Part shown: one piece after another, positions 28,813 through 61,175 of the stretch
Numbering within the stretch: the stretch's first letter is position 1
Layout of the letters: the number at the start of each line of letters is the position of its first letter
NCBI RefSeq assembly: GCF_009755275.1
Contig: NZ_WQLA01000005.1
Span: 310,001-374,000 of the forward strand
DNA: 64,000 bases
DNA from: Mucilaginibacter aquatilis
GTDB lineage: Bacteria > Bacteroidota > Bacteroidia > Sphingobacteriales > Sphingobacteriaceae
Direction: 5' to 3'
Translations under genes and position numbers: made by a program
Notes under the pieces: generated by a model
Databases searched by the model: none
Told to the model about the DNA's origin: nothing
What the model saw: only the letters and a program-made list of their open reading frames with translations

Positions 28813-29907
28813 ATGAGTAGATTTGTAATTATATTAATTGTACTTTTTATACCACAGCTGCTTATGGCCCAGTTGAGGCCTGGGTTTAATGCCGAGGAGT
28901 ACCTGGAAATGTTGCGCTTATCGCGCCAACAAACAGATTCGGGGATAAAAAATGATCAAACACCTAAACCAGTTAATTTTAAAAGGATATACCGTTCGCC
29001 AATTGGCCCGCTGCTAAACCGTTGGGAGTTGTGGACAAATGCAGGCAGCAAAACGGCTGTTATTAGCATAAGAGGAACAACCGGCGATGCTGTGAGCTGG
29101 CTTGAAAACTTTTACGCAGCACAGGTTCCGGCTGTTGGCGAGCTGCAAATTAATGATAGTACACGCTTCAATTATCATTTGGCAAACCATCCACAGGCCG
29201 CCGTACACATTGGCTGGTTGCTTGGCCTGGCCGAGCTTTCAAAAACCATAGTACCCGAACTGAACAAGTTGTACAAAACCGAAGGCTACAAAAATTTCAT
29301 CATTATGGGACATAGCCAGGGTGCAGCGCTTGCCTACTTACTGCGTTCACATTTAGCGTGGCTACAAACGCAAGGCCTTGTACCTGCTGATTTGGTTGTA
29401 AAAACATATTGCAGCGCTCCGCCTAAACCCGGCAATTTATATTATGCTTATGATTTTAATTATTTAACCCGCGGAGGTTGGGCCATAGCAGTTACTAACG
29501 CAGCCGATTGGGTACCTCAAACTCCTTTCTCTATACAAACGCTTGATGACTTTGCCAAGCCAAATCCGTTTGGCAGTATTGATGCGGCAGTAAAGGGTAA
29601 ATCTATTTTTGTTAAGCTGTATGTTAAGCACATTTATAACCGCTTGCGCAAACCCCCTTTAAGGGCTGTTAAAAACAATCAGAAATATCTGGGCCACATG
29701 GTGTATAAATTCATTAAAAAAACACTCCCCCAGTTTAAAGAGCCTGCGTACGCCGAAGGCAATTTATATACCTCATGTGGTGTACCTATTGTGCTGATGC
29801 CTGATGATGACTACCGGCAAAAATTTCCTGACGACTCAAAGAATGTATTTGTACATCACATGTTTTGGCCCTATTACTATCTTACTCAAAAGGAATATGC
29901 ACAATAA
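28813..29907 (+). CDS. Exported lipase-like alpha/beta hydrolase (class 3 lipase type)
   Basis: Protein of 364 residues. Signal peptide 1-20 ends LLMAQ. The nucleophile elbow GHSQGAALAYLL gives S168, and a likely acid is D232 in TNAADWVPQ, the usual position in class 3 lipases. The body matches alpha/beta hydrolases acting on lipid esters. It stands alone, followed by the TPP riboswitch. The substrate is unknown. Confidence 0.8.
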   Translation: MSRFVIILIVLFIPQLLMAQLRPGFNAEEYLEMLRLSRQQTDSGIKNDQTPKPVNFKRIYRSPIGPLLNRWELWTNAGSKTAVISIRGTTGDAVSWLENFYAAQVPAVGELQINDSTRFNYHLANHPQAAVHIGWLLGLAELSKTIVPELNKLYKTEGYKNFIIMGHSQGAALAYLLRSHLAWLQTQGLVPADLVVKTYCSAPPKPGNLYYAYDFNYLTRGGWAIAVTNAADWVPQTPFSIQTLDDFAKPNPFGSIDAAVKGKSIFVKLYVKHIYNRLRKPPLRAVKNNQKYLGHMVYKFIKKTLPQFKEPAYAEGNLYTSCGVPIVLMPDDDYRQKFPDDSKNVFVHHMFWPYYYLTQKEYAQ

Positions 29908-29959: not shown

Positions 29960-29967
29960 TAGATTTG
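29960..29967 (+). promoter_or_regulatory. Candidate -7 box of the riboswitch promoter
   Basis: TAGATTTG matches the Bacteroidota -7 consensus TAnnTTTG exactly. A start about 7 nt downstream would place the 5' end of the RNA at the first base of the riboswitch P1 stem. No TTG sits at the ideal 19-21 nt upstream, so only the -7 half is clear. Confidence 0.5.
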
Positions 29968-29973
29968 TTAAAT

Positions 29974-30062
29974 ACTTGCACGGGGTGCTTAACCAGTAAT
30001 GGTGAGGCTGAGATAATACCCGATAAACCTGATACGGATAATACCGGCGTAGGGATGCATGG
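29974..30062 (+). ncRNA. TPP riboswitch (THI element)
   Basis: All conserved blocks are present in order: CGGGGTGC (29981-29988), CTGAGA (30008-30013), ATACCC, ACCTGAT (30027-30033) and GGATAATACCGGCGTAGGGA (30036-30055). P1 closes with TGCA at 29977-29980 and 30056-30059. It binds thiamine pyrophosphate. The terminator downstream indicates transcription control: TPP bound means early stop. Confidence 0.96.
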
Positions 30063-30111
30063 GCTTTAATGTTATCATCAGCGGTTGTTGTCCGTTTATC
30101 AGATATTAATT

Positions 30112-30166
30112 AAAAAGCCTTGTTTCTGTTGCCGTTATTATGCGGTACCCAGAAGCAAGGCTTTTT
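30112..30166 (+). terminator. Riboswitch expression-platform terminator
   Basis: 17-bp stem (30112-30128 with 30150-30166, core AAAAAGCCTTG/CAAGGCTTTTT, one G-U pair) around a 21-nt loop that can itself pair, followed by ACATTT. It ends 22 nt before the methyltransferase ATG, between the aptamer and the operon. Confidence 0.85.
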
Positions 30167-30188
30167 ACATTTAATACCTTTTAAATAA

Positions 30189-30908
30189 ATGGATTTAGAA
30201 AAAAACAACAGTTTTGGGTTAATGACTCAAAGCCTCACCAACTGGCAGGGACGCAAAGAGTGGTTTTTTAACCGCGAACACACCGACACTTACGAGCAAT
30301 GGTATGAAGGCCGCTATAAGCGTGCCGAGGTTTGGCAAAAAAAAGTAATGAGCCAGCTGCTGGGTAAAGACCCGCGCGTTAAAGAACTGCTAGAGTTTGG
30401 TTGCGGCACCACACGCTTTACCCGCTGGTGGCACGAAATAGGCATTGACGCAACAGGTGGCGACCTCTCTCCCTTTATGCTTGGCCAGGCTGTACACTTA
30501 TTTAAGGGCGATTTAGTGAATGCCGACTCGCACTTTATGCCTTTTAAAGATAACACCTTTGATGCCGTAGCTTTTATTACCACGTTTGAGTACTATCGTA
30601 ATCCGGTTCAGGTTATACGCGAGGCCGCCAGAGTAGGCAAACACGGAATTGCGTTTGGTATGATGAACCGTAACTCTCCTAAGGTGCTGCGCCGCCGGGT
30701 ACAGCAAATGTTTGGTAAAAATCCGTTTTATGTTACGGCAACCTTTTATACGCCGCAAATGCTCATCAATAAAATTGATGAGGCCCTGCAAGGCCGCAGC
30801 TACACTTTGGAGTGGACTTGTACCGGCCTGCCCGAGTGGTTCCCGGTACAGCAGTGGAGCGTTCCGGTGGGCGACTTTTTTGGTTTATACGTTAAATTTA
30901 CTGATTAA
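30189..30908 (+). CDS. Class I SAM-dependent methyltransferase in a TPP-riboswitch operon
   Basis: Cytoplasmic protein of 239 residues. SAM motif I is LLEFGCGTTRF (67-77), followed by an acidic loop GGDLSPFML and the motif HFMPFKDNTFDAVAFITTFE. It belongs to the Methyltransf_11-type superfamily. It is the first of four tightly spaced genes under the TPP riboswitch, so its substrate should relate to thiamine. No thiamine methyltransferase of this class is standard, which makes it unusual. A partner is suggested by the Trm112-like protein encoded by the fourth gene. Confidence 0.88.
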   Translation: MDLEKNNSFGLMTQSLTNWQGRKEWFFNREHTDTYEQWYEGRYKRAEVWQKKVMSQLLGKDPRVKELLEFGCGTTRFTRWWHEIGIDATGGDLSPFMLGQAVHLFKGDLVNADSHFMPFKDNTFDAVAFITTFEYYRNPVQVIREAARVGKHGIAFGMMNRNSPKVLRRRVQQMFGKNPFYVTATFYTPQMLINKIDEALQGRSYTLEWTCTGLPEWFPVQQWSVPVGDFFGLYVKFTD

Positions 30909-30913
30909 CCGCC

Positions 30914-31966
30914 ATGACGCTATCAGGAAAAATATCGGGTGGAGGTTTTGAGCAGTTTATTTTACCACAGCTTGGCTACAATCGCCCCGAAGTAACCAGC
31001 GGGCCTGCCTTTGGTGTAGATGTATCGGTAATTGGCTTACTTGGCGGCACAGGGCTGGCGCTTACCAGTGATCCGCTTTCGCTCATACCATCACTGGGTT
31101 TGCAGGAATCGGCATGGCTGTCGGTACATTTAATGGCCAATGATATGGCTACTACAGGCTTTACTCCTATGTATGCCCAAATGGTGCTTAACCTACCGCC
31201 ATCGTTAACTGAACAAGATTTTGCCAGTTATTGGGGCTATATTCACAAATATAGTCAGGCAATAGGTGTTGCTATTACAGGCGGACACACCGGCACTATT
31301 GAGGGTCAAAACTCTACCATTGCCGGTGGCGGCACCATGTTGTTAACTGCTCCTGTAGATGTTATACTCTTAAGCCACAAGGCCGAGGCCGGTAATGTTA
31401 TTATTGTTACCAAAGCGTGCGCTACATCTTCAGCTGCGTTACTGGCCATGTGTTTCCCGCAAACAGTAAAAAATCAATTGGGCACAGAGGTTTACCAGGA
31501 AGGTTGCGGGTTGTTTTACCAAACATCATCATTAATTGATGCCCTTACAGCCGTTGGCTTACCCTCCCGCGGTAAAGAGGTTACTGCCATGCACGATGTT
31601 ACAGAAGGCGGTGTACTGGGTGCTATTTATGAAATGGCAGTTGCCTCAAACAACGGCGTAAAAGTATATAACGAGCAACTGCCCTTAGGCGATGCCCAGC
31701 AAAGCATTTGCAAACTTTTTGGCATCGACAGCCGCTTTTGCATCGGGGCCGGGTCTATGGTTATAGCCGTTGATAAAGGTTATGTTGACAATGTTTTGCA
31801 ACGCCTGGCATCTGCTCAAATTAAAGCAACCGTTGTGGGCGAGTTTACCTCACTTGCCGATGGTTACAAACTTATTGAGAACGGCCATGAAAACGACCTG
31901 CTCTACTACAGTAAAGACCCTTACTGGGATGCTTTTTTTAACGCTTATAAAAACGGATGGAAGTAA
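30914..31966 (+). CDS. PurM/HypE/ThiL-superfamily ATP-binding protein (AIR synthase-related)
   Basis: Protein of 350 residues. The AIR synthase-related N-domain starts GKISGGGFEQFILPQLG, with metal/ATP-side acidic residues at D36 (FGVD), D53 (TSDP) and N76-D77 (MANDMATTG), then GGHT 123-126. The C-domain has HDVTEGGVLGAIYEMA (227-242), closer to HypE than to standard ThiL. Family members phosphorylate substrates or activate amides with ATP. Being under a TPP riboswitch suggests a kinase acting on a thiamine precursor, but standard ThiL motifs are not clear. Confidence 0.85.
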   Translation: MTLSGKISGGGFEQFILPQLGYNRPEVTSGPAFGVDVSVIGLLGGTGLALTSDPLSLIPSLGLQESAWLSVHLMANDMATTGFTPMYAQMVLNLPPSLTEQDFASYWGYIHKYSQAIGVAITGGHTGTIEGQNSTIAGGGTMLLTAPVDVILLSHKAEAGNVIIVTKACATSSAALLAMCFPQTVKNQLGTEVYQEGCGLFYQTSSLIDALTAVGLPSRGKEVTAMHDVTEGGVLGAIYEMAVASNNGVKVYNEQLPLGDAQQSICKLFGIDSRFCIGAGSMVIAVDKGYVDNVLQRLASAQIKATVVGEFTSLADGYKLIENGHENDLLYYSKDPYWDAFFNAYKNGWK

Positions 31967-32616
31967 TGGAAAAAACGCATGGAATTACCGGCGGCGTTTA
32001 TTTAGTGCTTGACCCTGCCCAACCGATTGATTTGTTATTACAAAAACTGGAAGCGGCGCTTACAGGCGGAGTAAACGCTGTACAAATATGGAACAACTGG
32101 GACAAAGAAACTGATAAGCTAACACTGATTGAAGCAATTGGTACTCTTTGCCGTAATTATCACGTTCCGCTATTTATCAATGAAGAATGGCAATTATTGA
32201 AGCAAAGCCTTTTTTTAGATGGCGTTCACTTTGATGCCATACCCAATGACTATGAGTTAATTAAAAAAGCAGTTACAAGACCGTTTATGGCCGGTATTAC
32301 CTGTTCGGGCGATTTAAACACCGTTGCCTGGGCCAGTAAGCACCAACTTAATTACGTATCGTTTTGCGCCATGTTTCCGTCGCCATCGGCGGGTAGTTGC
32401 AGTATTGTAATGCCGGAGGTTGTTAAAGAAGCTCACAAAACTACCTCTCTGCCGCTGTTTGTATCTGGCGGCATTACACCTCAAAACATCATCGCCTTAA
32501 AAGAAAAAACACCGTTTGACGGTGTGGCCGTCATATCGGGCATCATGAGTGCCAACGACCCCCAAAAACAAGTTAAAATTTATAAAGATGCATTAGGCAT
32601 CGCCCAATCTGTATGA
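31966..32616 (+). CDS. ThiE/TenI-like TIM-barrel protein with a diverged active site
   Basis: About 216 residues from ATG 31966 (TAATG overlap with the previous stop; ATG 31957 adds three residues). The TIM-barrel framework of thiamine-phosphate synthase is clear: INEEWQLL, LDGVHF, SGGITPQN and VAVISGIM. By eye, the QxRxK phosphate site reads Q-I-W-N-N, ND reads NE, and the PTPTK loop reads PSPSAGS, so residues that bind pyrophosphate look lost. It may be a TenI-type thiazole enzyme or something new. It overlaps the next gene by 4 nt. Confidence 0.8.
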   Translation: MEKTHGITGGVYLVLDPAQPIDLLLQKLEAALTGGVNAVQIWNNWDKETDKLTLIEAIGTLCRNYHVPLFINEEWQLLKQSLFLDGVHFDAIPNDYELIKKAVTRPFMAGITCSGDLNTVAWASKHQLNYVSFCAMFPSPSAGSCSIVMPEVVKEAHKTTSLPLFVSGGITPQNIIALKEKTPFDGVAVISGIMSANDPQKQVKIYKDALGIAQSV

Positions 32617-32870
32617 AACTTAAAACCATAGAAAAGCTTTGCTGCCCGTTTGATAAGCACGACCTTACTTTGCAAGTACTGGTCAAAGACACTACCGAGA
32701 ACATTATAGAAGGCATTTTAAACTGTACTCATTGCCAGCGCAAATACCCTATAGTTTACGGCGTACCTATTATGGCTCCTGACGAGTACCGCCAAATACC
32801 TTTAGAACAACCAATACTAGAGCGATGGAAGCTGGAGTATGGTATTAGTGATTTGAAATTGCTACCGTAA
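32613..32870 (+). CDS. Trm112-like zinc-ribbon protein
   Basis: Protein of 85 residues. An N-terminal LCCPFDKHDL (C11; the usual second Cys is D14, with H16 nearby) and a C-terminal C38-T-H-C41 in NCTHCQRKYPIVYGVPIM form the Trm112/YcaR zinc-ribbon layout. Trm112 proteins bind and activate SAM methyltransferases in eukaryotes and archaea. The first gene of this operon is a methyltransferase, so a partnership is plausible but inferred. It is the last gene, with an ATGA overlap to the ThiE-like gene. Confidence 0.85.
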   Translation: MKLKTIEKLCCPFDKHDLTLQVLVKDTTENIIEGILNCTHCQRKYPIVYGVPIMAPDEYRQIPLEQPILERWKLEYGISDLKLLP

Positions 32871-33027: not shown

Positions 33028-35847
33028 CTATTTCCCCAACCGTTCTTTTAGGAACTGGCCGGTGAAGCTTTTTTTACTTTTCAATAAAGCTTCAGGAAGA
33101 CCTTCAAACACCAGGGTACCGCCATTATTGCCTCCGCCTGGGCCAATATCAACTACCCAGTCGGCACATTTAATAACGTCCATGTTGTGTTCTATCACAA
33201 TAATGGTATTACCTTGATCAAGCAGTGCATTGAATGATTTAAGCAGCTTTTTAATATCGGCAAAGTGCAGGCCGGTAGTGGGCTCATCAAATATAAACAG
33301 GGTCTTGCTGGCATTATTTCCTTTAATAAGGAACGATGCCAGTTTAATACGCTGCGCCTCACCACCCGATAAGGTGTTTGACGATTGGCCTAACTGTACA
33401 TAACCCAAACCAACATCCTGCAAGGGCTTAATTTTGTTCAATATTTTTGGCTCATTAACAAAGAATTCAATGGCTTCGTCAATGGTCATTTCTAAAATTT
33501 CGGATACGTTCTTTTCAAGATAGGTTACGTCAAGAATATGCTGTTTAAAGCGCTTGCCATTACAAGCCTCGCAAGGCAAGAATATATCTGCCATAAACTG
33601 CATCTCTATCTTCACCTCGCCCTCGCCCTGGCAAACATCACAACGGCCGCCTTCTACGTTAAAGGAGAATGCTGATGGTTTAAGTCCGCCTGCTTTGGCA
33701 GCTGGCTGTGCAGCATATAGGTTTCGTATCTCGTCCCAGGCTTTTACATAAGTAACCGGGTTTGAACGCGATGAACGGCCTATGGGATTTTGATCAACCA
33801 TCTCCACCGCTTCTATCTTACTATAATCGCCTTCTATTCCATCATAAGCGCCGGTTTGCTCACCCGAGTAATTACCCAGCACCTTTTGTAATGCCGGATG
33901 TAAAATGCGTTTAACCAAACTTGTTTTGCCAGAGCCGGATACACCTGTTACTACGGTAAGCACACCTAATGGAAACTTTACATCAATATTTTGCAGGTTG
34001 TTTTCGCGTGCACCTTTAATAAGCACATAATCATTCCATTTACGGCGATGCTCTGGCGTTTCAATTTCCTCACGTCCGCTCAGGTATTTGCCGGTAAGGC
34101 TGTTATCATCAGTAAGTATCTGATCATAAGTACCTGAAAAAATCAGCTGACCACCATGCGTACCTGCTTCAGGACCAATGTCAATAATATGATCGGCAGC
34201 CTGCATAATCTCTTCTTCGTGCTCAACCACCAAAACGGTGTTGCCTACATCACGTAATGATTTAAGCACGGTAATCAGTCGTTGCGTATCACGCGGGTGC
34301 AAACCAATACTTGGCTCATCAAGCACGTAAACCGAACCTACCAAACTACTACCTAATGATGTTGCCAGATTAATACGCTGCGATTCACCGCCCGAAAGCG
34401 TGTTTGACAAGCGGTTAAGTGTTAAATAACCCAAACCTACATCATTTAAAAAGCTGGTACGGTTGGTTATTTCCATTAGCAAACGCTTGGCAATCTTGGT
34501 ATCATGCGCATCCATTTGCAGGTTATTGAAAAACTCCTGGGCCTTATCAAGCGGCATTAGCACAATGTCGGTTATTGATTGCCCGCCCACCTTAACATAA
34601 GTAGCGTCAGGACGTAAGCGGCTTCCTTTACAATCCGGGCAGGTGGTTTTTCCGCGGTAACGTGATAATATAACGCGGTATTGTATTTTGTAGGTTTGTT
34701 CCTCTATCTCTTTGAAGAAAGCATTTAAACCCTGGAAATATTTATTGCCGGTCCAAAGTACTTTCTTTTCCTTATCGCTTAACTGGCTGAAAGGGCGATG
34801 AATTGGAAAATTAAATTTATCGGCCTGGCTAATTAGCCGCTGGTTCCATTCGCCCATTTTTTCGCCACGCCAGGGGGCAATGGCATTATCATAAATTGAT
34901 TTACTTTTATCAGGAATAACCATATCCTCATCAATACCTATAACCTTGCCATAGCCTTCACATTTACGGCAGGCACCGTATGGGTTATTAAAGCTGAAAA
35001 AATTTGGTGTAGGTTCTTCAAACCTTATACCGTCAAGTTCAAAGCGATCACAAAAAAAGCTTTCTGCTTCGTTATCGTCCGCAGGCTTTTGGTAACGAAC
35101 ATAACAATCGCCTTTACCTTCAAAAAATGCGGTTTGGGCCGAGTCGGCTATGCGGCTCAGCGTTTCTTCTTCCTGGTTGATGGTTACACGGTCAACCACA
35201 ATACGTAACTCATCTTCCGGAGTTAACGGCTCATTGGCAATTGATTCATCTTCCAGTAAACCTTCAATGCGCGATACTTTACCGTTGTACTCTACCCTTA
35301 CAAAGCCCTTTTGCAACAATACCGCCAGTTCTTCTTTTAAACTGCGGTTATTATGCGGATGCAGCGGACAAAGAATGGTTACTTGGGTATCATTGGGCAT
35401 GCCCTGGCAAAAATTAACCACATCGGTAACTGTATCCTTTTTCACCTGCTGGCCTGATATAGGCGACATGGTTTTACCAATACGCGAGAACAACAGTTTC
35501 AGGTAATCATAAATTTCGGTACTGGTACCCACTGTTGAGCGCGGGTTACTGGTAATTACCTTTTGCTCGATAGCAATAGCGGGGGCAATACCTTTTATAT
35601 AGTCAACATCGGGCTTGTTCATACGCCCTAAAAACTGGCGCGCGTATGATGATAGACTTTCTACATACCTGCGCTGTCCTTCGGCATACAGCGTATCAAA
35701 CGCCAGCGATGACTTGCCCGAGCCTGACATGCCTGTAATCACCACCAGCTGGTTTTTAGGTATGGCAATGTCCATGTTTTTTAAATTATGAACACGGGCA
35801 CCTTTAATGATTATATGTTGTTGAGGGTCTTTTTCAGTTTCTAACAT
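33028..35847 (-). CDS. uvrA: Excinuclease ABC subunit A
   Basis: Nucleotide-excision-repair damage sensor of 939 residues. It has two ABC ATPase halves, each with Walker A (GMSGSGKSSLAFDTL; GVSGSGKTSLVKRIL) and signature (NTLSGGESQRINLA; NTLSGGEAQRIKLA). The first zinc finger pairs CRKCEG with CPDCKG and the second has CDVCQGEG with CEACNG. Length is normal. It loads UvrB onto lesions. Monocistronic, with its own terminator and a 548-bp gap upstream. Confidence 0.98.
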   Translation of the reverse strand: MLETEKDPQQHIIIKGARVHNLKNMDIAIPKNQLVVITGMSGSGKSSLAFDTLYAEGQRRYVESLSSYARQFLGRMNKPDVDYIKGIAPAIAIEQKVITSNPRSTVGTSTEIYDYLKLLFSRIGKTMSPISGQQVKKDTVTDVVNFCQGMPNDTQVTILCPLHPHNNRSLKEELAVLLQKGFVRVEYNGKVSRIEGLLEDESIANEPLTPEDELRIVVDRVTINQEEETLSRIADSAQTAFFEGKGDCYVRYQKPADDNEAESFFCDRFELDGIRFEEPTPNFFSFNNPYGACRKCEGYGKVIGIDEDMVIPDKSKSIYDNAIAPWRGEKMGEWNQRLISQADKFNFPIHRPFSQLSDKEKKVLWTGNKYFQGLNAFFKEIEEQTYKIQYRVILSRYRGKTTCPDCKGSRLRPDATYVKVGGQSITDIVLMPLDKAQEFFNNLQMDAHDTKIAKRLLMEITNRTSFLNDVGLGYLTLNRLSNTLSGGESQRINLATSLGSSLVGSVYVLDEPSIGLHPRDTQRLITVLKSLRDVGNTVLVVEHEEEIMQAADHIIDIGPEAGTHGGQLIFSGTYDQILTDDNSLTGKYLSGREEIETPEHRRKWNDYVLIKGARENNLQNIDVKFPLGVLTVVTGVSGSGKTSLVKRILHPALQKVLGNYSGEQTGAYDGIEGDYSKIEAVEMVDQNPIGRSSRSNPVTYVKAWDEIRNLYAAQPAAKAGGLKPSAFSFNVEGGRCDVCQGEGEVKIEMQFMADIFLPCEACNGKRFKQHILDVTYLEKNVSEILEMTIDEAIEFFVNEPKILNKIKPLQDVGLGYVQLGQSSNTLSGGEAQRIKLASFLIKGNNASKTLFIFDEPTTGLHFADIKKLLKSFNALLDQGNTIIVIEHNMDVIKCADWVVDIGPGGGNNGGTLVFEGLPEALLKSKKSFTGQFLKERLGK

Positions 35848-55267: not shown

Positions 55268-55861
55268 TCAATTATTAAATTGTCCATGCTTGAGCATTTC
55301 GTAATCTACCGGAGTATCAATATCAACTTTACCTTTTTCAAAATTGTAAACAATCACTTCATCTGCATTCTCGGCAATCAGCTTTTTAGCGCCTTGTTCG
55401 CCGGTTAAAGATAATAGAGGACCAAAGTAACTCCTGCTAAATATTGCCGGAACCCCAATACTTTTAGCATAGCCACAGGCTACAATATACTTTGCCGCAT
55501 CGGGTTTTAATTGAATAAGATTATTTAATAATGAGGCATCGGCAAAAGGCTGATCGCAAAGCATGATTAAAGCACTGTCAACATCCTTGTTGGCTGATAA
55601 TGCTTTAACTCCGGTACTTATTGAGGACGCCATTCCCAGCTGCCAGTTAGGATTGTAAAGTATATTTACGGGCAAGTGCGAAATCGCATCAGTAATCTCA
55701 TTGGCATGTGACCCGAGCACTACGTACACACCTGCACTTTCAACGCCAAGGGCCGCATTAATAGCATTTTGCAAAAGCGTGCCATTGTTATATGGAAGCT
55801 GCTGCTTAGGACGCCCCATACGCGTTGAAGATCCGGCAGCGAGAATAACAATGCCGGTCAT
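55268..55861 (-). CDS. MobA/MocA-like molybdenum cofactor nucleotidyltransferase
   Basis: Protein of 197 residues. The N-terminal NTP-transferase signature ILAAGSSTRMGRPKQQLP (5-22) and LIMLCDQPFADASLLN are typical of MobA/MocA. It adds CMP or GMP to molybdopterin. Being translationally coupled (ATGA) to xdhC points to MocA, the CTP form serving xanthine dehydrogenase-type enzymes. Confidence 0.9.
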   Translation of the reverse strand: MTGIVILAAGSSTRMGRPKQQLPYNNGTLLQNAINAALGVESAGVYVVLGSHANEITDAISHLPVNILYNPNWQLGMASSISTGVKALSANKDVDSALIMLCDQPFADASLLNNLIQLKPDAAKYIVACGYAKSIGVPAIFSRSYFGPLLSLTGEQGAKKLIAENADEVIVYNFEKGKVDIDTPVDYEMLKHGQFNN

Positions 55862-57018
55862 AAATTTTCTTGATTTACGGGTAAAGCTGCCATTTCGGGG
55901 GAATTTATAACCGTAGTTTTATCTCGCAGCGATGTTCCCTTGCGCTGTTGTAGTACCGCTTGTATTTCGGATAGTATCGATAGCGCTATTTCATCCGGTG
56001 TTTGCGCACCTATATCCAGGCCGGTGGGTCCGTAAATGCTTTTCAATTGATCTGCAGTTATATCCAACCCGTCATCGAGCAGCTCGTTCAACATGCGCTG
56101 TAGTTTCTTTTTAGGTCCAAGGCTGCCAACATAGGCTAACTGTAGCGGCAACAACTGGCGAAGCATAGCCAGGTCATAGTTGTAATTATGCGTCATTAAC
56201 ACTGCAACCGTAAAAGCATCTATATTAATTAGAGAGAGTGCCTCTGTGGCCTTTGCACAAAGCATACGCCTGGCCCGTGGAAAACGCGACGCAACAGCGT
56301 AATTTGCCCGCCCATCAACTATGGTTACATGCCATCCTAAAACGGCGGCCATCTCTACCAGCGGCAAAGCATCATTACCTGCTCCAAAAACCAGTAGTGA
56401 TACAGCAGGTTTCAATATTTCAATAAAAGCTGTGTATTCGGTACCCTCTTCGTTGAGGTAGCTTTTGGTCAGTGATTTACCTGCTTTAATAACCTCCTTT
56501 GCATCATTCTGCAACGAAACAGACAGTGTTGCATCGTTACCATTATAAATTACTTCATCATTGCTTAAAAAAAGTATGGTTCCGGGTTGAGATAACTTAC
56601 GGTCGGCCAGTGAAAAGAGTGTTACTATAACCACTTGCCTGCGTTTGGCTAAAAACCTTTTAAACAAACTTATGGGGTTATGCTCTTTAGTATCATATAC
56701 GGGTTCTATTAAAATATGAATGATACCATTACAGCCCAAACCAACGCCTAATTTCGCATCGTCATCATCGGTAGTATCATAGGTAACCAACATTGGCTGC
56801 TGCTGGGCCATTACTAACCTGGCTTTGCGCAGGGCATCGCCTTCTAAACAACCGCCGCTAATGGCGCCTGTTAGTTGCCCATCTTCGGTAACCAACATAC
56901 GGGCACCGGCCCTGCGGTACGATGATCCTTCTACCTGCACTACAGTAGCCAATGCCGTTTGCTTACCTTGCTGCAAAGCAATATCATAAGCACTAACTAT
57001 ATCTTCAAGTTCTTTCAT
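55858..57018 (-). CDS. XdhC/CoxI-family molybdenum cofactor chaperone
   Basis: Protein of 386 residues. The N-terminal XdhC_CoxI domain shows EGSSYRRAGARMLVTEDGQ and AISGGCLEGDALRKARL; the C-terminal Rossmann domain has LLVFGAGNDALPLVEMAAVLGW and VLMTHNYNYDLAMLRQLL. XdhC binds Moco and inserts it, after sulfuration, into xanthine dehydrogenase. No xdhA or xdhB is in the window, so the client enzyme lies elsewhere. Confidence 0.93.
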   Translation of the reverse strand: MKELEDIVSAYDIALQQGKQTALATVVQVEGSSYRRAGARMLVTEDGQLTGAISGGCLEGDALRKARLVMAQQQPMLVTYDTTDDDDAKLGVGLGCNGIIHILIEPVYDTKEHNPISLFKRFLAKRRQVVIVTLFSLADRKLSQPGTILFLSNDEVIYNGNDATLSVSLQNDAKEVIKAGKSLTKSYLNEEGTEYTAFIEILKPAVSLLVFGAGNDALPLVEMAAVLGWHVTIVDGRANYAVASRFPRARRMLCAKATEALSLINIDAFTVAVLMTHNYNYDLAMLRQLLPLQLAYVGSLGPKKKLQRMLNELLDDGLDITADQLKSIYGPTGLDIGAQTPDEIALSILSEIQAVLQQRKGTSLRDKTTVINSPEMAALPVNQENL

Positions 57019-57104
57019 AGGTATAGCGTAAACTTATGAAATTAATACGTTGATGAAAAGGTTGCTCAACTTTTACCAGTGAAACACATTGCTTTTACAC
57101 AGTA

Positions 57105-58295
57105 CTAATCAAACAGGTGCACATTAAACAAACGTCCGGCTGCAAATGTATCTTCATTAGCCGGCAGAGTTATAAAGCCATTGGCTTTAATTAAATTAAC
57201 CATATCGCCAGATGTTGAGGTATCTACAGGCTCGGCAAAAACGGCGTCGTTTGTATAATTGAGTTTAACTAAAAGATGACAGCTAAGCTGTGGTTTAAAC
57301 GTTGTTGTTTTACTTAATGATGCAGCAACAACGGTTACCGAAACTCCCAGGCACCCGCTTAACCAGGCTTTAAAATAAAGCTGGTAACAGACCCACGTGG
57401 ATACCGGGTTACCAGGAAAACCGAAGACAAGCGGCCCTGCATTGAACTTTCCAAATAATAGCGGCTTGCCCGGCTTTTGAGCTATGCTGTGAAAAAGTGT
57501 TTGCATACCCAACTGTTGCAAAACCTGTGGTAAATAATCAAACTTGCCTTTTGATACCGCCCCCGAAAACAGGAGTACATCATATTGCTGCAGCATTCTT
57601 TGAACTTGCTGCTCCATTGCAACAGGCTCATCAGGCAAATGGCAAGCAGTTGCGTTAATACCTGCTTGCTGCAATGCGGCCAACAACATGTAACTGTTGG
57701 ATTGCCGTATTTGATGTGGCAAAGGCTGCACATTAACCGGCACCAGTTCATCACCTGTTGAACACACGGCAATGCGCGGCATGCGGTAAACTGCAACATC
57801 AGCTAAGCCAACGGTAGCCATTGTTGCCACAATAGCGGGCGTTATTTTTAGACCAGAATTTACCAGTATTTCCCCCACTTTTTCGTCGGTTGCCTGTAAA
57901 TGCACATTCTGCCAAGGCGAAACAGCGTTAATGTTTACCGTTGCAACGTTGATATCAATTACAATGTCTTCATATCTTATAACCGCATCGGTGCCAAACG
58001 GCAACATAGCGCCTGTCATAATTTCAATGCAATGGCTTGGATTATTAAGTTGCTTTTGAGGATGGCCGGCCGGTTGAATACTTTCAATTATAAACGAACG
58101 GGTGCCTGCTTGAAAAGCTTGGTTACTGATAGCAATGCCATCCATAGTTGCCCTATTAAAAGGCGGAAAATCGCGATCAGCTTTTATATCCTGCACCAGG
58201 ATGCGTCCCACTGATTGCAGCAATGGCACCATTTCAACACCAAAGCTTAATGTATGCTGCCTTACAATATCTAACGCTTCACCAACTGATATCAT
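57105..58295 (-). CDS. moeA: Molybdopterin molybdenumtransferase
   Basis: Enzyme of 396 residues inserting molybdate into adenylated molybdopterin. It has DFPPFNRATMDGIAI near the N-terminus, STGDELVPVN and RQSNSYMLLAAL in the MogA-like domain, SGAVSKGKFDYLPQVL (usually SGGVSVGDYD) and VFGFPGNPVSTWVCYQLY. The start overlaps the moeB stop as ATGA. Confidence 0.95.
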   Translation of the reverse strand: MISVGEALDIVRQHTLSFGVEMVPLLQSVGRILVQDIKADRDFPPFNRATMDGIAISNQAFQAGTRSFIIESIQPAGHPQKQLNNPSHCIEIMTGAMLPFGTDAVIRYEDIVIDINVATVNINAVSPWQNVHLQATDEKVGEILVNSGLKITPAIVATMATVGLADVAVYRMPRIAVCSTGDELVPVNVQPLPHQIRQSNSYMLLAALQQAGINATACHLPDEPVAMEQQVQRMLQQYDVLLFSGAVSKGKFDYLPQVLQQLGMQTLFHSIAQKPGKPLLFGKFNAGPLVFGFPGNPVSTWVCYQLYFKAWLSGCLGVSVTVVAASLSKTTTFKPQLSCHLLVKLNYTNDAVFAEPVDTSTSGDMVNLIKANGFITLPANEDTFAAGRLFNVHLFD

Positions 58296-59461
58296 ACAGT
58301 GCTTCCTCCGCCATTTTGCAAATCTGGTGTAATTATATACTCATCGTCAAATTCATCTTCCCAATATTCCATACCGCCTAAAACGCTGTAAATTTCAGCT
58401 TCGGGGTAGCGTTGCTGTAGCATTTGCGCAGTGCTGTTACTTCGGGCTCCTTTTTGACAGAACATGACTACGGGCTGTTTATTATTTATATGGATTTCCC
58501 CAGTATTAAACTGGTTGTAAGGGATGGATACAGCGCCAGTCAAATGTCCGGTTTGAAAGTCCTTTAACTCGCGTACATCTATCAGCTGAAATTGCTTTCC
58601 GCTTTCATACCAATCAAATAATTCATCAACTGAAAGCTTTAATACGGTATTACATACTACTTCCGCATAACTGTTTCGAAGGGCGGTAATCTGCCTGCTT
58701 TCAGCACGAATTTTCAATTTCATTTTATACTGTTCATCCTGTAAAAAATCAAATATTTGCAGGTAGCCGGAGAGCGTTTTGCCTATTCCTGTAATTAGTT
58801 TGACTACTTGTAATGCCTGCTGGCTACCCACTATAGCAGGTGTAACACCCAGTACTCCGGCTGTATTACAATCCGGAATTTCGCCGTTGGCCGGTGGTGT
58901 TGAGTATAAACACCGGTAGGTTGGTCCGTTGAGGTAATTGAACACACTAACATGCCCTTCAAACTGCTGCACAGCACCGTATACAAATGGCTTGTGGCTT
59001 ATTACGCAGGCATCATTTATCAAATAGCGGGTGCTTATGTTATCGGTAGCATCAACCACTATATCATAATTAATTACTATTTCGAGAGCGTTTTGTACAG
59101 ACAATAATTGATTGTAAGCTTCAAACCTCACATTCCTGTTAAGCTTACTTAATTTGTTAACAGCAGTTTCAACCTTGCTTTTTCCTATATCATTTTCATT
59201 ATACAAAACCTGGCGGTGCAAATTGCTCAGGCTAACTACATCGGCATCAATTATGCCTATAGTACCTATGCCCATTCCTGTTAAGTATTGCAATACAGGC
59301 ACGCCTAAACCACCTGCTCCTACTATCAGCACTCTAGCTTCTTTTAATTTTTGCTGTGCCGCTAAGCCAAACCCCGATAGCACAACCTGACGGGAATAAC
59401 GCCCGGCGTCTTCCGAATCATGAAACGCATCATCAGTATTGTTAACTTGTTTGCCAGGCAT
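58292..59461 (-). CDS. moeB: MoeB/ThiF-type sulfur carrier adenylyltransferase with rhodanese domain
   Basis: Protein of 389 residues. The E1-like domain has the P-loop-type VGAGGLGVPVLQYL (47-60) and catalytic Cys C198 in PDCNTAGVLGVTP. A C-terminal rhodanese domain has C335 in VMFCQKGARS. It adenylates MoaD and can supply sulfur for it. The usual CxxC zinc pairs look lost: the site reads T-Y-R-C184 and no C-terminal CxxC follows. Overlaps moeA by 4 nt. Confidence 0.92.
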   Translation of the reverse strand: MPGKQVNNTDDAFHDSEDAGRYSRQVVLSGFGLAAQQKLKEARVLIVGAGGLGVPVLQYLTGMGIGTIGIIDADVVSLSNLHRQVLYNENDIGKSKVETAVNKLSKLNRNVRFEAYNQLLSVQNALEIVINYDIVVDATDNISTRYLINDACVISHKPFVYGAVQQFEGHVSVFNYLNGPTYRCLYSTPPANGEIPDCNTAGVLGVTPAIVGSQQALQVVKLITGIGKTLSGYLQIFDFLQDEQYKMKLKIRAESRQITALRNSYAEVVCNTVLKLSVDELFDWYESGKQFQLIDVRELKDFQTGHLTGAVSIPYNQFNTGEIHINNKQPVVMFCQKGARSNSTAQMLQQRYPEAEIYSVLGGMEYWEDEFDDEYIITPDLQNGGGSTV

Positions 59462-59520
59462 TGATGTAGATTTTTATAAAACTTTAAGCGGTAACAAGAG
59501 TGATTAAATATAGTAAAGCA

Positions 59521-60513
59521 TCACCCACCTAATACCGACATGGACGTATGAGTTGCTCCGTTACTTGCGGCCTCAGCGTCGAAACCATTTGCTTCGCGGG
59601 TGCTTACGGCGCCTATAATGCATTTTTCAACTTCTTCAATAGTTGCCCCGCTCCTGAGTATATCTCTGAGATTGGCAGCCGGCGGTCCGTATAGGCAGGT
59701 ACGCAGCTCGCCGGTGGCTGATAGCCTGATGCGGTTACAGGTTCCACAAAATGTACGGCTAAACGAAGGTATTATGCCAAAGCTTCCTGCATAGCCTGGA
59801 ATTTTGTAATTTACAGAGGTTGAACTGTCTTCATTAATTAACGGCGTTATCTCCGCGTAGTGTGCAGTAATGTATTCCTGAATACGGCGGTAATTCCAGT
59901 CGGATAATACTTGCGAACCATCGCTTCCGTTGAATGGCATTTCTTCCAAAAAACGTACCGATAGCGCATGATTGCGTGTAAGTTCAATAAAGGGAATAAT
60001 ATCCTGAATATTCTTATGCTCAGCCACCACACAATTCAGCTTTACCCTAAAACCGTTATCAAGCAGTTTAAATATGCCGGCATAAACATTTTCAAAGTCG
60101 TCGCGACGGGTGATTTGCATAAAGCGATCACGGCTTAACGAATCGAGGCTGATGTTGATTTTACTAATGCCCATTTGCTTTAGCTGTGCCTGGTATTTAT
60201 CAGAAAGGGTTCCGTTGCTGGTAACCGTAATTTCGTTTAAACCATGGGTGCTACTTAGCTTTTTTAAAAATGGCATTATACCATTTCTCACAAAAGGCTC
60301 GCCACCTGTAATGCGTATTTTGCTTACACCAAGGCGGCAAAAAACATCCGACAGCAACAGCATTTCGTCAAATGATAGCAAATCCTGGCGACGGGCAAAG
60401 TTGATACCCTCCTCGGGCATGCAGTAATAGCACCTGAAATTGCAACGATCGGTTACCGAAAGCCGCAAGTAATTCAGCTGCCTGCCGTATTTATCTACCA
60501 GTTTGTTATTCAT
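59521..60513 (-). CDS. moaA: GTP 3',8-cyclase
   Basis: Radical-SAM enzyme of 330 residues, first step of Moco synthesis. The N-terminal cluster is C24-x3-C28-x2-C31 in DRCNFRCYYCMPEEG, the C-terminal cluster uses C256, C259 and C273, and the protein ends with the catalytic GG tail (SMSVLGG). It starts 10 nt after the moaE stop. moaC, which acts next, is not in the window. Confidence 0.97.
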   Translation of the reverse strand: MNNKLVDKYGRQLNYLRLSVTDRCNFRCYYCMPEEGINFARRQDLLSFDEMLLLSDVFCRLGVSKIRITGGEPFVRNGIMPFLKKLSSTHGLNEITVTSNGTLSDKYQAQLKQMGISKINISLDSLSRDRFMQITRRDDFENVYAGIFKLLDNGFRVKLNCVVAEHKNIQDIIPFIELTRNHALSVRFLEEMPFNGSDGSQVLSDWNYRRIQEYITAHYAEITPLINEDSSTSVNYKIPGYAGSFGIIPSFSRTFCGTCNRIRLSATGELRTCLYGPPAANLRDILRSGATIEEVEKCIIGAVSTREANGFDAEAASNGATHTSMSVLGG

Positions 60514-60522
60514 TGTTTATGG

Positions 60523-60933
60523 TTACGGATGAGCATTCACCCAAACGCTGTTATCTTCAAAGTATTCCTTTTTCCATATAGGAACGCTTTTCTTTAATTC
60601 ATCAATTAAAAAACGGCATGCCTCAAAAGATGCCTCGCGGTGAGCCGATGATACGCCAATAAGCACTACAGGTGTACCCGGCTGCTTAGCTCCGGTGGCA
60701 TGAATAACGGCAACACCTACCAGCGGCCACTTGTGCATGGCAATATTAGCCAGCTTTTCCATTTGTGTAAGTGCCATTGCATCATAGGCCTCAAAATCAA
60801 GATGCAAAACTTCTTTGCCTTTGGTTTGGTTGCGTACTGTACCTATAAAGAAATTTACGGCACCAGCCGTTGGCGAGTTGAGGTAAGCAAATGCCTCATT
60901 AAGGTCAATATGTTCAACTAGTCTAATCAACAT
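60523..60933 (-). CDS. moaE: Molybdopterin synthase catalytic subunit
   Basis: Protein of 136 residues. The family motif NFFIGTVRNQTKGKEVLHLDFEAY (two segments) leads, and later AVIHATGAKQPGTPVVLIGVSSAHR and VPIWKKEYF hold the active-site lysines. I use ATG 60933; a GTG at 60936 overlaps the moaD stop as TAGTG. It joins with MoaD to put two sulfurs on cPMP. Confidence 0.93.
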   Translation of the reverse strand: MLIRLVEHIDLNEAFAYLNSPTAGAVNFFIGTVRNQTKGKEVLHLDFEAYDAMALTQMEKLANIAMHKWPLVGVAVIHATGAKQPGTPVVLIGVSSAHREASFEACRFLIDELKKSVPIWKKEYFEDNSVWVNAHP

Positions 60934-60935
60934 CA

Positions 60936-61175
60936 CTATCCGCCGCTAACTGGTGGTATTAACGCAATTTCCTGCTCTGGGCCAATGGTATCTTCATCAC
61001 TGGCATAGTCATTATCAACCGCAATGGCTAACGATTGTAACTGTTTAAAAGCAGGATAGTGCATTCCCAACCATTGCTTTAAACCGGCAACGGTAGTAAC
61101 ACCTGCATCAGCGGGAACAGTTAATCTGCTTTGCCCTGTGATATCTCGTGTAATGCCAAATAGTAAAACATTCAT
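60936..61175 (-). CDS. moaD: Molybdopterin synthase sulfur carrier subunit
   Basis: Ubiquitin-fold protein of 79 residues from ATG 61175 (MNVLLFGITRDITG). It ends PPVSGG, the diglycine that is adenylated by MoeB and thiocarboxylated. Its stop overlaps the start of moaE. Typical size and motif for MoaD. Confidence 0.92.
   Translation of the reverse strand: MNVLLFGITRDITGQSRLTVPADAGVTTVAGLKQWLGMHYPAFKQLQSLAIAVDNDYASDEDTIGPEQEIALIPPVSGG

Follow-up and report, generated by a model that had tools for sequence, protein, structure and literature searches.

The window analysed here is a 64,000-nucleotide stretch of Mucilaginibacter aquatilis DNA, and our subject is a four-gene operon within it that is headed by a thiamine pyrophosphate (TPP) riboswitch. 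The leader and the four genes are arranged as follows, in positions of the window and all on the forward strand:

29960-29967, forward: TAnnTTTG promoter-like box (pattern match)
29971-30072, forward: TPP riboswitch aptamer, RF00059 (cmscan 69.2 bits, gathering score 54.3)
about 30112-30166, forward: intrinsic-terminator-like hairpin and T run, the putative expression platform (hairpin about 30112-30164, -30.3 kcal/mol)
30189-30908, forward: class I S-adenosylmethionine-dependent methyltransferase gene (Methyltransf_11, 59.9 bits, 4e-16)
30914-31966, forward: gene for an ATP enzyme of the HypE/PurM/ThiL (AIR synthase-like) superfamily (AIRS_C/AIRS, 67.9/36.2 bits)
31957-32616, forward: ThiE/TenI-like TIM barrel gene (TMP-TENI, 94.0 bits; second ATG at 31966)
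32613-32870, forward: Trm112-like zinc protein gene (Trm112p, PF03966, 30.8 bits, Pfam cut-off 22)

The aptamer is the only Rfam match above its gathering score in the 64-kb window, and it lies on the same strand as the first ATG, 116 nt upstream of it. Those 116 nt fold with an energy of -41.3 kcal/mol (z = -7.4), a value that none of 200 shuffled sequences reached. An initial annotation, made from the sequence alone, had described a TPP aptamer followed by a terminator, and both the aptamer score and the folding of the terminator region confirm that description. Across 80 homologous leaders (see below), terminator-like hairpins were found in 56, compared with 7 of 80 after one shuffle of each. 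The TAnnTTTG box, which we take to be the Bacteroidota -7 consensus, coincides with the position at which the initial annotation had begun its locus (29960), and the same pattern occurs in 41 of the 80 homologous loci within a 68-nt stretch that starts 60 nt upstream of the aptamer, for a random expectation of 2.9.

The genes themselves are tightly packed, with a spacing of +5 nt, an overlap of 10 nt (1 nt when counted from the second ATG) and an overlap of 4 nt, as had been proposed. All four proteins exceed the Pfam cut-offs for their families, which bears out the products first assigned from the sequence: a methyltransferase, a HypE/PurM-like enzyme, a ThiE-like barrel and a Trm112-like protein. 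The operon also proved to be without genes for ThiC, ThiD, ThiG, ThiM or a transporter, again as claimed. In a scan against NCBIfam, none of the four window proteins rose above any cut-off.

To define the distribution of the unit, we searched for the HypE-like protein in 60 genomes, 37 of them from the window's genus, and in a phylum sample of 395 genomes (E <= 1e-20). Full-length relatives of at least 67% identity were present in 7 of the 37 genus genomes, and relatives at E <= 1e-20 in 13 of the 395, with the window's own genome included in each count. Setting aside the window's copy leaves 18 relatives; together with it, they make up the 19 operon genomes referred to below. The four genes were found in the same order and on the same strand in all 18 relatives, each with an aptamer upstream (17 above the cut-off and one at 47.8 bits). 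When named genomes were scanned with a methyltransferase profile, 236 relatives came up, and the best 80 of them were analysed. All 80 loci belong to Bacteroidota by their titles, in genera that include Mucilaginibacter, Pedobacter, Runella, Emticicia, Algoriphagus, Cyclobacterium, Pontibacter, Rufibacter, Flavobacterium, Salegentibacter, Chryseobacterium, Sunxiuqinia and others. Every one of these best 80 carries the four genes in order with an aptamer upstream, scoring at least 61.6 bits with a model built from 17 of the relatives' aptamers. Retention of the gene order and of the riboswitch in relatives had been put forward as a check on the initial annotation, and both are kept throughout. 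Six of the 80 genomes had been counted among the 18, so that outside the window 92 distinct loci carry the four genes as a genuine unit with its TPP switch. The sets of 99 sequences used below count those six genomes twice and hold 93 distinct sequences; some alignments were built from 13 of the 19 operon sequences.

Beyond the four genes, the neighbourhood is little conserved. Among up to four open reading frames (ORFs) on each side, the commonest neighbouring gene family occurs in 13 of the 80 loci at most, and a larger operon with hidden partners was ruled out on that ground. Within the unit, distance matrices of the proteins correlate, most strongly between the methyltransferase and the Trm112-like protein (r = 0.83) and also between the HypE-like and ThiE-like proteins (r = 0.76), the largest value from 200 permutations being 0.14. 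This pattern of co-variation suggests two working pairs, one of methyltransferase and Trm112-like protein, the other of HypE-like enzyme and ThiE-like barrel.

We then asked how far the barrel resembles ThiE. Its AlphaFold model (pLDDT, the predicted confidence score, of 92) has eight strands in the ThiE TIM-barrel fold, and the top Foldseek matches are the ThiE structures 1xi3 and 2tps, at a template-modelling (TM) score of about 0.78 and E of about 1e-13. Against the B. subtilis ThiE and TenI structures 2tps, 3o15, 3o16 and 3qh2, which share this fold, TM by query is 0.74-0.79 for ThiE and 0.69-0.74 for TenI. The barrel scores 101.8 bits with the ThiE model TIGR00693, below the cut-off of 145.1; this is a weak criterion, as a ThiE of the same genus that keeps Arg59, Asp112 and Lys159 is also below it (127.5 bits). 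Residues were therefore assigned by alignment to B. subtilis ThiE (1g67). Like ThiE, the operon barrel has the Gln57 equivalent (99 of 99 sequences) and the phosphate-side GG and Ser (Gly188 in 99/99, Ser209 in 98/99), with Thr always at the position of Ser130. Unlike ThiE, it has lost Arg59, Lys61, Asp112 and Lys159, presumably the pyrophosphate and magnesium residues of that enzyme: the position of Arg59 is Trp in all 99 sequences, and the other three residues are kept in none, two sequences having Arg at Lys61. The barrel also has residues of its own, an invariant Trp45 and two invariant cysteines, Cys137 and Cys148 (99/99), as well as Cys116 in 83 of 99. In the model, strand 5 is followed directly by Cys116 and strand 6 by Cys137, at the end of the barrel where active sites usually lie, and Cys148 is in a loop of lower confidence. 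The genus ThiE encoded in a thiC operon (one copy) keeps all four pyrophosphate-site residues, and three genus copies at a TonB receptor locus keep Arg59, Asp112 and Lys159 with Met at Lys61. Judged by these residues, the operon barrel is not an ordinary ThiE.

The HypE/PurM-like enzyme likewise combines a familiar architecture with departures from every named family. It shares the two-domain AIRS organization of HypE, SelD, ThiL and PurM, its profile has HypE 2i6r as the best match in the PDB (1e-17), and it carries HDxTEGG, GGHT and an N-terminal GK, which we take to be signatures of these relatives. Unlike them, the window protein is below every NCBIfam cut-off, at 80.1 bits against 251.6 for HypE (TIGR02124) and 58.2 against 184.15 for ThiL (TIGR01379), whereas the ThiL model gives 318.5 bits with another gene of that genome. 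The operon enzyme is distinct from that cellular ThiL, with 22% identity over 122 amino acids. A cysteine anywhere in the last 12 residues is found in 1 of 99 sequences; in HypE, the C-terminal cysteine is presumably catalytic. HypE identity was rejected on the score and the missing cysteine, and the protein is apparently a family of its own. As a canonical ThiL is encoded elsewhere in the operon genomes, the HypE-like protein is not needed as a thiamine phosphate kinase.

These results bear on the simplest explanation of the locus, that it holds an ordinary ThiE and an ordinary ThiL accompanied by two hitchhiking genes, an outcome the initial annotation had named as one to look for among homologues. 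Both proteins do resemble ThiE and the ThiL superfamily at the level of the fold. Against this, the four pyrophosphate-site residues are gone from every barrel, canonical ThiL occurs elsewhere in 19 of 19 operon genomes while their operon copies reach 58-85 bits of the 184 set as the thiL cut-off, and the supposed hitchhikers stay with the other two genes in all 92 loci. We consider this explanation very improbable.

The nearest full-length relatives of the HypE-like protein outside Bacteroidota are haloarchaeal proteins named 'AIR synthase family protein' on plasmids of Haloarcula, Halobacterium and Haloferax (26-30% identity over 88-98% of the query), found in a plasmid collection, the only one searched for them. 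On three of three Haloarcula plasmids (L285 4495-7020; L289 3499-6020; L290 3499-6020), the relative is divergent from genes annotated as a thiamine-binding protein and as the binding protein of a thiamine ABC transporter; with the MTH1187 model (cut-off 54.7 bits), the binding protein of L285 reaches 41 bits. Unlike the operon, the six haloarchaeal plasmids examined have no annotated methyltransferase, ThiE-like or Trm112 gene beside the HypE-like relative.

The methyltransferase is the most conserved member of the unit, with 67-98% identity to its homologues (median 79%), and its structure model was too poor to use (pLDDT 49). The Trm112-like protein has Cys11, Cys38 and Cys41 in 99 of 99 sequences and Cys10 in 93. 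It scores 63.7 bits with NF038101 (Trm112_arch), below the cut-off of 77, and 13 of 13 members match that model at E <= 0.001; its best PDB matches are 6zxw_H (3e-13; titled 'Uncharacterized protein') and 6f5z_C. We predict that it is the partner of the methyltransferase, based on their co-occurrence in the 92 loci and on the distance correlation noted above, the highest in the unit. In the Trm112-methyltransferase holoenzymes of archaea and eukaryotes a small zinc protein likewise stands beside a class I methyltransferase, and the operon profiles match Trm112_arch and eukaryotic Trm112, as well as, weakly, the 18S rRNA methyltransferase 6g4w_q. Known Trm112 partners modify rRNA, tRNA and translation proteins, according to PMC5372719 and PMC8708615; the operon pair differs in being set in a vitamin operon. 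A reading of the locus as a defence system was discarded, its sole hint being that the methyltransferase matches mad2 weakly (31 bits).

If not an ordinary ThiE and ThiL, what does the operon provide? We compared its occurrence with that of canonical thiamine genes, in genome-wide searches that did not include Thi4, Thi5, TenA or ThiM. In the window's genome the search for ThiC came up empty, as did the one for ThiG at E <= 0.001, and the ThiE family gave no match besides the operon barrel; three partial matches to the ThiD model (22-38 bits) were found, the best of them a hexose kinase. Among 27 genus genomes, ThiC was present in none of the 7 with the operon and in 6 of the 20 others, and one genus in particular (g22) has an operon genome without ThiC and five relatives with it. 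In the phylum sample, ThiC was present in 138 of 395 genomes and in none of the 13 with the operon (Fisher p = 0.003, for related genomes that are not independent). The two samples together give no ThiC in 19 operon genomes; the pooled p is 6e-10. These p values are guides only, given the relatedness of the genomes and the different ways in which the pooled samples were taken.

The other canonical genes follow a similar pattern. Full-length ThiG (>340 bits) occurred in 11 of 44 genomes searched and in 0 of the 19 with the operon. Full-length ThiD (>150 bits) occurred in 12 of 44 and in 1 of the 19 (G305, where it is genuine at 296 bits against a cut-off of 205), and two of the 19, G025 and G027, have a further ThiE-family gene of full length (39 genomes searched). 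Partial matches were not counted. Those to the ThiG model in operon genomes reach 19-27 bits (up to 34 with frame neighbours) over 40-94 of 247 positions, several above Pfam's 23-bit cut-off, and similar ones occur in ThiC genomes; second ThiE-family matches reach 22-28 bits, two at or over the 27-bit cut-off; and ThiD-model matches reach 60 bits, many over the cut-off, in most operon genomes. Five of these many partial matches were scanned: two from the ThiG and ThiE-family searches proved to be HisF, and three from the ThiD search two ribokinases and one hexose kinase. Canonical ThiL was present in all 44 genomes. With ThiD lacking and the pyrophosphate-site residues of the barrel gone, the classic ThiE reaction is unlikely in these cells.

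For the later step to TPP, the thiamine pyrophosphokinase model PF04263 matched in 11 of 12 operon genomes outside the genus and in 0 of 27 genus genomes; in the window's own genome the search gave no match. We also observed a thiamine-pyrophosphokinase-like family whose members start with MSSHH[IV]VREKQEPALL, one PF04263-positive (L165 6119-6781) and one from the genus (L156 12503-13129), which is 36% identical and has no Pfam or NCBIfam match. In operon genome G035, a protein with 36% identity over 177 aligned positions to a PF04263-positive protein is likewise without a match in Pfam or NCBIfam.

A thiamine-linked role for the operon is by far the likeliest. Within it, we favour the reading that the TPP-repressed unit substitutes for the canonical thiamine pathway in many Bacteroidota as a route to thiamine phosphate, because the operon and ThiC nearly exclude each other and ThiG and ThiD are lacking. 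The conserved unit and its switch, the altered barrel, the separate ThiL, the missing transporter, the distance correlations and the neighbours of the Haloarcula relatives are also in its favour. We put the probability at about one half. Several observations weigh against it. Of 49 further operon genomes, two (Mangrovivirga and Gramella sp. AN32) do carry ThiC, which leaves the exclusion strong without being complete; these 49 were taken from the 80 named-locus genomes, leaving out 6 searched before, 24 others and L192, and some of the ThiC-free ones are metagenome bins that may be incomplete. In the genus alone the exclusion is not significant (Fisher p = 0.13). ThiL is no proof that thiamine phosphate is synthesized, as it also occurs in G001 and G008, where no ThiC, operon or ThiE match was found. 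The haloarchaeal relatives of the HypE-like protein in Haloferax (n=2) and Halobacterium (n=1) adjoin other genes. For an entire pathway, three catalytic proteins would be a small number. Finally, in Table 1 of PMC9666465, a leaf-bacteria study, 21 of 21 validated thiamine prototrophs have ThiC and ThiG, in a table from which the presence of operon strains could not be read.

The main competing reading is that operon cells make no thiamine de novo, and that the unit turns a damaged or partial vitamer back into thiamine phosphate. Proposed substrates are ring-opened, oxidised, demethylated or base-degraded thiamine, or hydroxymethylpyrimidine (HMP) and thiazole pieces activated in a new way. 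We hold this to be a real possibility, at lower odds than substitution of the pathway. Nearly all operon genomes lack the canonical synthesis genes searched, three enzymes fit a short route, and ThiL is kept, all as salvage or repair would have it. The distribution of TPP switches elsewhere in the genomes also bears on this question. The window's genome has another TPP element, below the threshold (41-44 bits; L002 1501-1664, reverse strand), just upstream of a TonB receptor gene that is followed by a PnuC-type transporter gene (locus L152 8441-12714, contig C3), suggesting thiamine-type uptake. A gene for an acyl-CoA-dehydrogenase-like flavoprotein comes next; its placement in an apparent thiamine-uptake locus is unexplained.

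Switches above the cut-off were present in all 7 operon genomes and all 6 ThiC genomes of the 27 from the genus, and in 0 of the 14 others, whereas sub-threshold matches of 34-46 bits occur in 27 of 27. Of 12 further switches above the cut-off in operon genomes from outside the genus, 11 precede a TonB-receptor-like gene of 764-843 codons, one of which was checked with Pfam; the exception is in G418. As the other switches precede TonB-receptor-like genes, thiamine-type uptake is apparently separate from the operon. The unit itself has no transporter, which somewhat disfavours salvage of a special imported vitamer, and operon-free relatives have the same type of uptake genes. Such strong avoidance of ThiC genomes is not what one would expect of a repair unit, and HMP could not be used in the known way, ThiD being absent from 18 of 19 operon genomes.

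Two side observations concern these switches and loci. At the TonB locus of three genomes (G004, L149 3359-5791; G005, L151 5182-7643; G025, L150 5673-8162), a phosphodiesterase-like gene (Pfam-checked in L149 only) accompanies ThiE. G004 and G005 are genus genomes without ThiC or the operon and G025 is an operon genome, and searches of the three turned up no ThiC, ThiG or ThiD of full length despite the ThiE at this locus. In a Christiangramia metagenome bin, a second TPP-aptamer-like match (38 bits; L230 9819-9910, reverse strand) lies just beyond the 3' end of the operon.

A further alternative is that the operon answers TPP shortage without making thiamine, for instance by way of a bypass that spares TPP, an antimetabolite resembling thiamine or a modified cofactor. 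No substrate is known, and the methyltransferase and Trm112-like protein match no NCBIfam thiamine family, both of which would suit such a role. Set against this, the barrel still has a ThiE/TenI fold with the Gln57 equivalent and with Gly and Ser on the phosphate side, the unit contains no TPP-dependent enzyme family, and the near-exclusion with ThiC would be left unexplained; we regard this alternative as improbable. The initial annotation had offered three proposals, namely salvage of a damaged or methylated precursor, a modified thiamine, or a new assembly route. What it said of a probable thiamine-linked role and of a unit other than the standard pathway is supported; its three proposals are all still candidates.

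Under the substitution reading, the operon could work as follows. When TPP is plentiful, the aptamer would bind it and the terminator would stop transcription; when TPP is low, the four genes would be made. The methyltransferase and Trm112-like protein, as a heterodimer, may act on a small precursor. With ATP, the HypE/PurM-like enzyme would activate a carbonyl or amide and so bring about ring closure or dehydration. The barrel might hold a ligand resembling thiazole phosphate or thiamine phosphate and make the final bond without a pyrophosphate leaving group, perhaps with the help of its two invariant cysteines, and the cell's separate ThiL would convert the product to TPP. In its strongest form, this reading would have the four genes make thiamine phosphate from start to finish without ThiC, ThiG or ThiD, with the methyltransferase, activated by the Trm112-like protein, supplying a ring methyl, the PurM-like enzyme closing a heterocycle with ATP, and the barrel assembling the product, its cysteines serving as sulfur carriers or donors; most of the Bacteroidota that carry the operon and would be scored as auxotrophs by ThiC and ThiG would then be prototrophs. 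We consider this strong form rather unlikely.

Known thiamine systems of the phylum offer partial parallels. In passages of PMC5613172, the thiSEGCHF-tenI operon of B. thetaiotaomicron is likewise a multi-gene Bacteroidota operon directly preceded by a TPP aptamer, and the organism likewise has separate TPP-switched outer-membrane and PnuT transport genes. The two operons have only a distant ThiE/TenI-type barrel in common, there being no ThiC, G, H, S or F here. The same passages describe a THI4-like thiazole synthase in some gut Bacteroidetes, a precedent within the phylum for non-orthologous replacement in this pathway. We found no description of the operon in open-licence full texts, among long result lists that were covered in part and in which a description may be missed, and the operon strains are not named in passages of PMC9666465, PMC12448291 and PMC10393543.

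Outside the unit, the window has a lipase-like ORF upstream (28813-29907) and an ORF on the opposite strand downstream (33028-35847). By eye, we also recognized a molybdenum-cofactor-type gene cluster at 55268-60936, which includes a ThiF/MoeB-like protein (58292-59461).

Taken together, four genes that stay side by side under a TPP switch, mostly in genomes in which the known genes for B1 synthesis were not found, suggest a so far undescribed route for the synthesis or rescue of vitamin B1. The locus would be a TPP-controlled thiamine operon with a new enzyme set, and categorically new if a new route were proved. Vitamin B1 supply shapes microbial communities, and ThiC and ThiG serve as genomic marks of B1 makers, for example in the passages of PMC9666465 cited above. 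With four genes, one switch and one phenotype, the operon is a clear test case. Should it prove to be a salvage unit, there would be an unrecognised vitamer worth four conserved genes. If instead this widespread operon replaces ThiC and ThiG, many calls of B1 makers in Bacteroidota would be wrong, and the enzymes would bring new heterocycle chemistry and a vitamin role for Trm112-type proteins.

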